A stretch of DNA of 64,000 nucleotides from a virus, in IMG/VR virus record IMGVR_UViG_3300031758_000043, positions 1 to 64,000 of that record. One strand, 5' to 3'. A program made the position numbers and the translations under genes. Below are positions 60,597 through 62,189 of this stretch, piece by piece; position 1 is the first letter of the stretch; every line of letters begins with the position of its first letter. The notes under the pieces were generated by a model that was not told the DNA's origin, did no database searches, and saw only the letters and a program-made list of their open reading frames with translations.

Positions 60597-61025
60597 ATGA
60601 CTATTGCACAAGCATTAAAAGAAAAGAACAAAAAGGTGACTAAGTTATCTAGTATGTGGGACAGACTTCAGCGTTACAACGTGGTGAATGAGGGAGAGGC
60701 TAAACCGTATACTAGCGAAAATACTTGGGAGGAGATCAATCGATTAACTAGCGAACTGATAGAATTAAAGACTAGAATTCATGCGGCGTCTGAGCCTGTT
60801 CGAGCTAAGATCTTTATGCTTTCTGAACTAAAGAGCAAGGCACAACGACTAAAGGGTATGAACACAAACAATGGAACCTATAGAGATCGTTATTCTGAAA
60901 CAACTATCTCACAAGTAGCAGAGTTTGATGTGCTTTGGAAGGACGGAATGGTTGAACTTATCGAAATGGAAATAGAAACTATTCAGGAAGAACTAGATAA
61001 GTTTAACCATACAACGAACATCTAG
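60597..61025 (+). CDS. DIP1984-like helical protein
   Basis: A 142-residue helical protein. The start 'MTIAQALKEKNKKVTKLSSMWDRL' and 'NEGEAKP', followed by 'EINRLTSELIELKTRIHAAS', resemble the small DIP1984 family of bacterial and phage proteins whose role is not settled. It is the last gene of the rightward unit; the RNA candidate begins at its stop codon. Confidence 0.5.
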   Translation: MTIAQALKEKNKKVTKLSSMWDRLQRYNVVNEGEAKPYTSENTWEEINRLTSELIELKTRIHAASEPVRAKIFMLSELKSKAQRLKGMNTNNGTYRDRYSETTISQVAEFDVLWKDGMVELIEMEIETIQEELDKFNHTTNI

Positions 61026-61218
61026 GGCGGGCCCAAGACTAGGGAGCGGACTATTAGTATGTGAAGCAGCAAAGCTTTGTACAACTTCTAGACTTTAAAG
61101 GATGTTAGATGGTGATTGTGAGGGTCAAGATTCAAGATTCATAATGGTTCAACACTCTTCTGTCAAACATCAAAACTCTGGATTACTTTTAGACCATCAC
61201 TTTTCACGGGCTTGCCCT
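61024..61218 (+). ncRNA. Structured RNA candidate (about 195 nt)
   Basis: The 234-bp gap between the DIP1984-like gene and the next terminator has no supported gene. Its ends pair: AGGGCGGGCCC (61024-61034) with GGGCTTGCCCT (61208-61218), an 11-bp helix with two G-U pairs, in AT-rich DNA. Inside are GAAG/CTTC around a CAAAGCTTTG palindrome, and two interlocking pairs, GATGTT (61101-61106) with AACATC (61166-61171) and GATGGT (61108-61113) with ACCATC (61193-61198), a possible pseudoknot. A terminator hairpin follows. The plus strand fits because the terminator is downstream, but the other strand is not excluded. No known RNA family recognised. Confidence 0.5.
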
Positions 61219-61228
61219 CCTATATATA

Positions 61229-61258
61229 GAAGAAGAGGATCTTTCGATCCTCTTCTTT
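61229..61258. terminator. Terminator after RNA candidate
   Basis: A 10-bp stem GAAGAGGATC / GATCCTCTTC with a TTTC loop, flanked by A-rich and T-rich ends, between the plus-strand unit and the minus-strand gene ending at 61260. Confidence 0.88.
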
Positions 61259-61259
61259 G

Positions 61260-62189
61260 TTATAATATGATTTCTAAGATCTTTTCAGCGACGCTAATAA
61301 ATTGATCACTAGTTAATACTGGTTCTCCAGGCTGAGTCGAAACTAATGCATACACGATTCTGCTTCTATCTGAGATTCCTATTACTGCATGATCATCGTT
61401 ATCGTTACTATCTCCTCCATCGTCGTCTTCAAATTCGTGAGTTATGCCATCCGAACTTCCTGGAATCAAGATCAGGTGATTTATCGTAGGGTCTGTGTCC
61501 AATGGATCTTCCAAATTAGTCTTATAGAAAAGGGTCCAGCCAGGTATGACTTCTTCAATTGATCCGCCATTAACCGTGTCTTCATCTGAACCTACATTAC
61601 CTGTTATCGAAAATTCTGATACTGATGTATTGTCAGCAACCATCACAAAGAGTCCAGGATACATGTTTGTGAAGTACTTTGATCCTGGTCCAAAGTAAGA
61701 GTTTCCGTCGCTTACTATACCATCCATTGGAGGACTTGTGTATTCGTTCTCATCATCTTCATTATCAGCCTGAGTGTGAGTGTACGGTATGCTGGTTGCT
61801 GCTAATGGATTATCCTCGTCTATCCCACCTTCTTTAATGATATCATACAGATTAGTCAAGTTAGTGTTCAAGTAGTTTCCACCGTCGTACATATCGTCTC
61901 CTCCGTCGTTTATTCCTGGCAAAGGATCGCCAGTCTCCCCGCTCGTAGTGTAATCGTCCCAAAAAAGATAGATGTTCGGCACAAGAGCAGTGATTTCAGA
62001 ATACTTAGCATTCAATTTACTTAAAGCTAGATCTATCCACTCGCTAGTTTGGATTCTGCTGCCGCCTCCTACTCCTCCTTGAGCTTGAAGTCTCATGCGC
62101 ATTGCTTGCTCATATAGAGCCTGTTGTTCAAAGAAAGATCGCAAGTCCTTTTGTTCTCTGCTCTCTTCTCCCCAATTTATAAATGACAT
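61260..62189 (-). CDS. Virion-associated protein, acidic (309 aa)
   Basis: A 309-residue acidic protein with a Gln/Arg helical N-terminus ('REQKDLRSFFEQQALYEQAM'), a Gly-rich linker, and a large Asp/Gly/Asn-rich beta region with many 'DD' clusters. It is next to the ferritin-like gene and the major capsid gene. A decoration or head-neck protein is possible. No family recognised. Confidence 0.58.
   Translation of the reverse strand: MSFINWGEESREQKDLRSFFEQQALYEQAMRMRLQAQGGVGGGSRIQTSEWIDLALSKLNAKYSEITALVPNIYLFWDDYTTSGETGDPLPGINDGGDDMYDGGNYLNTNLTNLYDIIKEGGIDEDNPLAATSIPYTHTQADNEDDENEYTSPPMDGIVSDGNSYFGPGSKYFTNMYPGLFVMVADNTSVSEFSITGNVGSDEDTVNGGSIEEVIPGWTLFYKTNLEDPLDTDPTINHLILIPGSSDGITHEFEDDDGGDSNDNDDHAVIGISDRSRIVYALVSTQPGEPVLTSDQFISVAEKILEIIL

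Follow-up and report, generated by a model that had tools for sequence, protein, structure and literature searches.

A structured RNA with a periodic UYAA array that follows a DIP1984-like gene in phages and in bacterial RNA-repair operons

The window that we analysed, a stretch of 64,000 nt, comprises positions 1-64,000 of the IMG/VR record IMGVR_UViG_3300031758_000043, a virus record of 78 kb that carries genes for a T4-type capsid protein and topoisomerase II; comparison of its DNA with annotated phages returned chance matches only. On the plus strand, which also carries the RNA features described here for the window, a gene at 60597-61025 encodes a 142-aa coiled-coil protein that resembles DIP1984/DUF6847 by profile and fold, and it is followed by a structured RNA at 61024-61218, a rod with a closing helix and an apical domain, for which the covariance-model match reaches from 61021 to 61226. 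The closing helix P1 pairs AGGGCGGGCCC at 61024-61034 with GGGCUUGCCCU at 61208-61218 over 11 bp, two G-U pairs among them, and it covaries in relatives. A helix of this kind (11 bp, at least 8 G-C pairs, a span of 150-250 nt) occurred only once in the window, at 61024-61218, and not at all in 20 local dinucleotide shuffles of the window, which bears out a preliminary description of the locus where a GC-rich 11-bp helix was said to join the ends of the region. The folding of 61024-61218 likewise surpassed that of dinucleotide shuffles (z = -2.8; 1 of 200 was equally good).

The same description had placed the RNA in a gene-free region of 195 nt with a terminator behind it. Searches at 61024-61218 brought up no conserved gene and no tRNA, tmRNA or Rfam family, but the first two bases of P1 fall within the stop codon of gene 60597-61025, so that the RNA continues directly from the 3' end of this gene. 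No convincing promoter was found between the two. A terminator-like hairpin of 13 bp does lie at 61229-61258; it falls short of the strict T-tail criterion applied when scanning for terminators but is placed between convergent genes. The convergent neighbour gene (61260-62189) has only its first 30-45 residues kept in several relatives and differs in the remainder, as if one N-terminal anchor were combined with exchangeable domains.

With Rfam 15, no match above the gathering threshold was obtained at the RNA in the window, in 20 phage loci or in 18 further loci, and lax thresholds yielded only chance matches at the window RNA. Identities as tRNA, tmRNA, 6S RNA or riboswitch were dropped for want of a family match: Rfam gave no 6S match, and neither ARAGORN nor Rfam recognised a tRNA-like fold. 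No tRNA or tmRNA was called anywhere in the window; for the RNA region itself, the preliminary description had also stated that none could be recognised.

Relatives were obtained by collecting capsid-related contigs and mapping orthologs of the 142-aa protein on them. In these, the ~190 nt directly after the stop codon are non-coding, recognisably alike (GGGCGA...GAGCCCACCA in one group) and followed by a terminator; they fold into the same rod-like RNA, laid out as helices, apical hairpins and then a UYAA motif every 7-8 nt. A covariance model built from eight phage RNAs with the window RNA left out (R1) recovered the window RNA at full length (E 0.014) together with many others at the expected place, and a phage-only model detected the bacterial loci L163-L165 with E-values of 5e-4 to 6e-3 (E-values are approximate because the calibration was short). 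In an alignment of 16 sequences (A4), 24 of the 28 pairs displayed double changes, with 65 double-change cells as compared to 20.3 ± 3.9 after shuffling and 10-16 when the helices were slid. The structural alignments came from Infernal and are biased towards the model; in a sequence-only control, a plain MAFFT alignment that was not fitted to the model (A1), 10 double-change cells remained versus 3.4 in shuffles and at most 4 with slid helices. The proposal of an undescribed structured RNA, for which covariation in relatives and covariance-model searches for known families had been named as checks, has thus stood on both counts: compensatory changes are abundant, no Rfam 15 family matches at gathering scores, and the RNAs form a covariation-supported structured family that is new to Rfam. 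The pseudoknot that had been thought possible is not required by the covariation-supported structure.

The individual helices show the same pattern of changing sequence and maintained pairing. The P6 hairpin, UGUGAAGC-AGCAAA-GCUUUGUA at 61060-61081, lies outside the covariance models and has counterparts at the corresponding site of relatives, where the stems differ yet remain complementary (UGAC/GUCA, AGAC/GUCU, CAAC/GUUG, GAAACC/GGUUUU and UAGAAC/GUUCUA) and the loop sequence is variable. The P7 hairpin, GAUUGUGA-GGG-UCAAGAUU at 61114-61132, contains a helix that is conserved and covarying in alignments A3 and A4; its register in the window is borrowed from relatives, as the single-sequence minimum-free-energy fold pairs this segment otherwise. 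Closing helices are wholly different between lineages yet kept, as in the window (AGGGCGGGCCC/GGGCTTGCCCT), L163 (AGAAGTCGTTTAC/GTAAGCGGCTTCT), L176 (GAGAAGCGGCTGCACTT/AAGTGCAGTTGCTTCTC) and L196 (AGGCAGCGGCG/CGCCGCTGCCT). When loci were folded individually with crude boundaries, end-to-end pairing exceeded 95% of shuffles in 28 of 55 loci; the window RNA did not reach this level, its value being attained by 7 of 60 shuffles.

The apical strand carries an array of UYAA motifs, which in the window spans 61125-61173, with UCAA at 61125, 61132, 61149, 61163 and 61170 and UCAU at 61139. UCAA was enriched at 4.07 per 200 nt versus 1.75 expected, and over 59 loci the distances between UYAA motifs peaked at 7, 14-15, 22, 29 and 36 nt, with 106 pairs at 7 nt (6.5 expected) and 65 at 22 nt (6.8 expected). 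The mean chain length was 3.6 as compared to 1.19 ± 0.06 in shuffles, and seven motifs in register were found in L111, L171, L176, L177 and L191. Because the loci share descent, these counts are not independent. The period is common to phages, Bacteroidetes and Lentisphaerae; the array is absent from L196. We infer, without binding data, that each UYAA motif takes up one protein protomer.

The candidate for such a protomer is the 142-aa protein. The NCBIfam model NF038048 (DIP1984) matched all 15 aligned members below its curated cutoff, with E-values down to 5.6e-11, and the window protein scored 35.2 bits (E 1.2e-8), short of the cutoff of 70 bits; its match to Pfam PF20935 was weak. Judged by its sequence, the protein is a distant DIP1984 relative and no member of that family by the NF038048 cutoff. 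Superposition of an AlphaFold model of the protein (pLDDT 92) on PDB 3kdq covered 140 of the 142 residues at Z 13.1 and an rmsd of 2.2, clearly ahead of the other full-length hits, and as far as this prediction goes, the protein has the 3kdq fold. The latter structure belongs to a protein from C. diphtheriae whose function is unknown; it was released in 2009 without an assigned role, and in the literature searched we found no link of DIP1984 or DUF6847 to RNA.

A protein profile search extended the set to 80 loci, down to 37% identity, plus 18 loci in bacterial assemblies. Diverged versions of the RNA follow the gene in nearly all profile-found loci, and in two huge phages the protein is present with a similar sequence downstream. 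Outside the training set, in 61 loci, 35 of 36 matches of a further covariance model (R2) lay immediately after the partner gene; the one R2 match that does not adjoin it (L152:2183-2324, E 2.1) is probably due to chance. Whole-record searches of 12 phages always placed the best match at the partner gene, with a single leading match in 11 of them. In 37 sources, mostly MCP loci without a detected ortholog, in which the window and the overlapping L080 were contained as positive controls, only the window RNA and one match with E 2.1 were returned; a second RNA copy at L080:8793-8938 was considered and, at E 2.1, taken as chance. The RNA is thus constantly placed after the DIP1984-like gene. Two phage contigs carry further RNA genes at this site, one a complete tmRNA gene just 3' of the RNA (L106:3208-3578) and the other four tRNA genes immediately 5' of the protein gene and its RNA (L140:56-378).

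Genomes of Bacteroidetes and of Lentisphaerae/Verrucomicrobiota likewise contain the pair, which is rare in bacteria: we found the protein in 3 of 295 genomes of a sample from one Bacteroidetes class and in 8 of 194 from the phylum of the Lentisphaerae genome. A plasmid search with the Lentisphaerae protein gave no match. As R2 scores for the Lentisphaerae/Verrucomicrobiota RNAs were weak or nil, these RNAs are judged kin only by their position, their closing helix and their UYAA array. At L195, a canonical DIP1984 locus away from RtcB, no RNA was found by model or by eye.

Seven bacterial loci adjoin RtcB and/or RtcR (L171, L177, L188, L191, L193, L196 and L201). The gene order is DIP1984-like gene, RNA, RtcB in all of these except L191, and RtcR lies divergently upstream in L171, L177, L188 and L191. 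Each of the four RtcR loci has, between RtcR and the operon, the sigma-54 promoter motif TGGCACGCnnTTTGCT, a pattern with a background frequency of 0.04 per kb in the loci examined. In L177, a Ro60 gene is located between this motif and the DIP1984-like gene. The 600 nt between motif and Ro60 gene (L177:740-1340) are non-coding and may hold Y RNAs, and no Rfam match was found in them; in the RtcR-controlled operon of L188, a tRNA-Asn gene (L188:1213-1287) lies between the motif and the DIP1984-like gene. The flanks read of the Bacteroidetes copies L161 and L162 contained no RtcB, and neither did any of the 19 phage records searched, which are fragments; T4-type RNA ligases are patchy among phages. 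The linkage to RNA repair hence consists of RtcB or RtcR in seven bacterial loci, four of them with the sigma-54 motif, and is absent in the phage records searched; any role of the pair in phages, where RtcB was not found and T4-type ligases are patchy, need not be repair. We cannot exclude a prior mention of the DIP1984-like gene in RtcB operons. The preliminary description, right as to the structured RNA, had overlooked that one neighbour gene is constant, and likewise the UYAA array and this RNA-repair context.

We propose that the DIP1984-like protein and the RNA form a ribonucleoprotein with UYAA-bound protomers that serves in RNA repair and in phage counter-defence, a reading for and against which we see the balance as even, binding and function being inferred. 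The 142-aa protein and the ~195-nt RNA would be made from one transcript (inferred, as there are no transcript data), the GC-rich rod would close the RNA to give a stable particle, and a protein oligomer would bind the apical UYAA strand. In bacteria, the particle may work with RtcB under RtcR control as a scaffold, substrate adaptor or decoy in the repair of cleaved tRNA. Phages would use the pair alone to blunt or reverse an RNA-cleaving defence, an inference made without phenotype data; since they have the pair and no RtcB, the particle would act there with a host ligase, with a T4-type ligase or with none.

The position of the RNA also suits another account, in which it stays in the mRNA as a cis-acting 3' UTR element that protects the 3' end, and the protein autoregulates by binding it. 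The RNA begins within or a few nucleotides after the stop codon, the gene-RNA interval lacks a convincing promoter and a terminator-like hairpin comes next; however, protecting an mRNA would hardly call for anything as elaborate as a rod of 195 nt with a periodic array, and in RtcB operons the RNA sits between two operon genes, and we regard this account as unlikely, if worth keeping in mind. The RNA is widespread in phages without RtcB and would thus be useful without a ligase, as expected of a decoy whose structured loops sequester RNA-cleaving enzymes of the host's defence, or a defence protein that binds RNA, while the DIP1984-like protein merely stabilises it. The tRNA or tmRNA genes that adjoin some loci are in line with such a decoy, which we nonetheless hold to be rather improbable, given that no tRNA-like fold was recognised and that the P6 loop sequence is not constant. 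An imperfect long rod of ~195 nt further recalls regulatory RNAs, acting 6S-like on RNA polymerase or by base-pairing with host RNAs; there is, however, no 6S or sRNA family match, and a constant protein partner and a UYAA array are foreign to 6S RNA, leaving this with very little to recommend it.

We return to the ribonucleoprotein and consider that the RNA and its protein are probably a new helper pair in RNA repair, in the absence of binding, transcript and phenotype data. A broader proposal, which we make more tentatively and judge slightly less likely to be right than wrong, is a class of protein-templating RNAs in which a closed rod presents UYAA at a 7.3-nt pitch to a DIP1984-like oligomer, as a third RNA-repair platform beside Ro60/Y RNA and Band-7/tRNA-like RNA and as a counter-defence particle spread by phages. 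DIP1984/DUF6847, a family of unknown function, here gains a concrete candidate RNA partner and pathway, and one RNA family is added to phages and RNA-repair operons. The covariance model, together with the rule for UYAA repeats, makes it directly testable whether the two bind, in what stoichiometry, and whether they act against RNA-cleaving defences.

Among known systems, Burroughs and Aravind reportedly described in 2016 an SPFH/Band-7 protein with a tRNA-like RNA in RNA-repair systems. The concept of a scaffold protein with a cognate RNA is shared, whereas the protein is unrelated and the present RNA is not tRNA-like by ARAGORN or Rfam. With DIP1984/DUF6847 (PDB 3kdq), the partner protein shares the predicted fold and a weak profile match, below the curated family cutoff. 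Like the ornate RNAs GOLLD and ROOL, the present RNA is a structured RNA of phages and bacteria, but it is much smaller, protein-linked and without an Rfam match to them (PMC12286853). RtcB operons that are controlled by RtcR and include Ro60 and Y RNAs (rsr-yrlBA-rtcBA) respond to damaged tRNA (PMC7790460). The likeness to Ro60 (Rsr)/Y RNA is that a small, structured RNA without coding function accompanies a dedicated protein in an RNA-repair operon with RtcR and RtcB. On the features tested, the RNA is no Y RNA: its constant neighbour is DIP1984-like rather than Ro60/Rsr, with Ro60 only at L177, and no YrlA-type tRNA-like domain was recognised, as neither a tRNA nor a tmRNA was called in the window and the phage and bacterial RNAs had no Rfam match. 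It further differs from Ro60/Y RNA in the DIP1984-like fold of its partner, the UYAA array and its mostly phage-borne occurrence without RtcB. By analogy, the RNA may nevertheless work like Ro60/Y RNA, a function that we infer, and the L177 operon itself includes Ro60.
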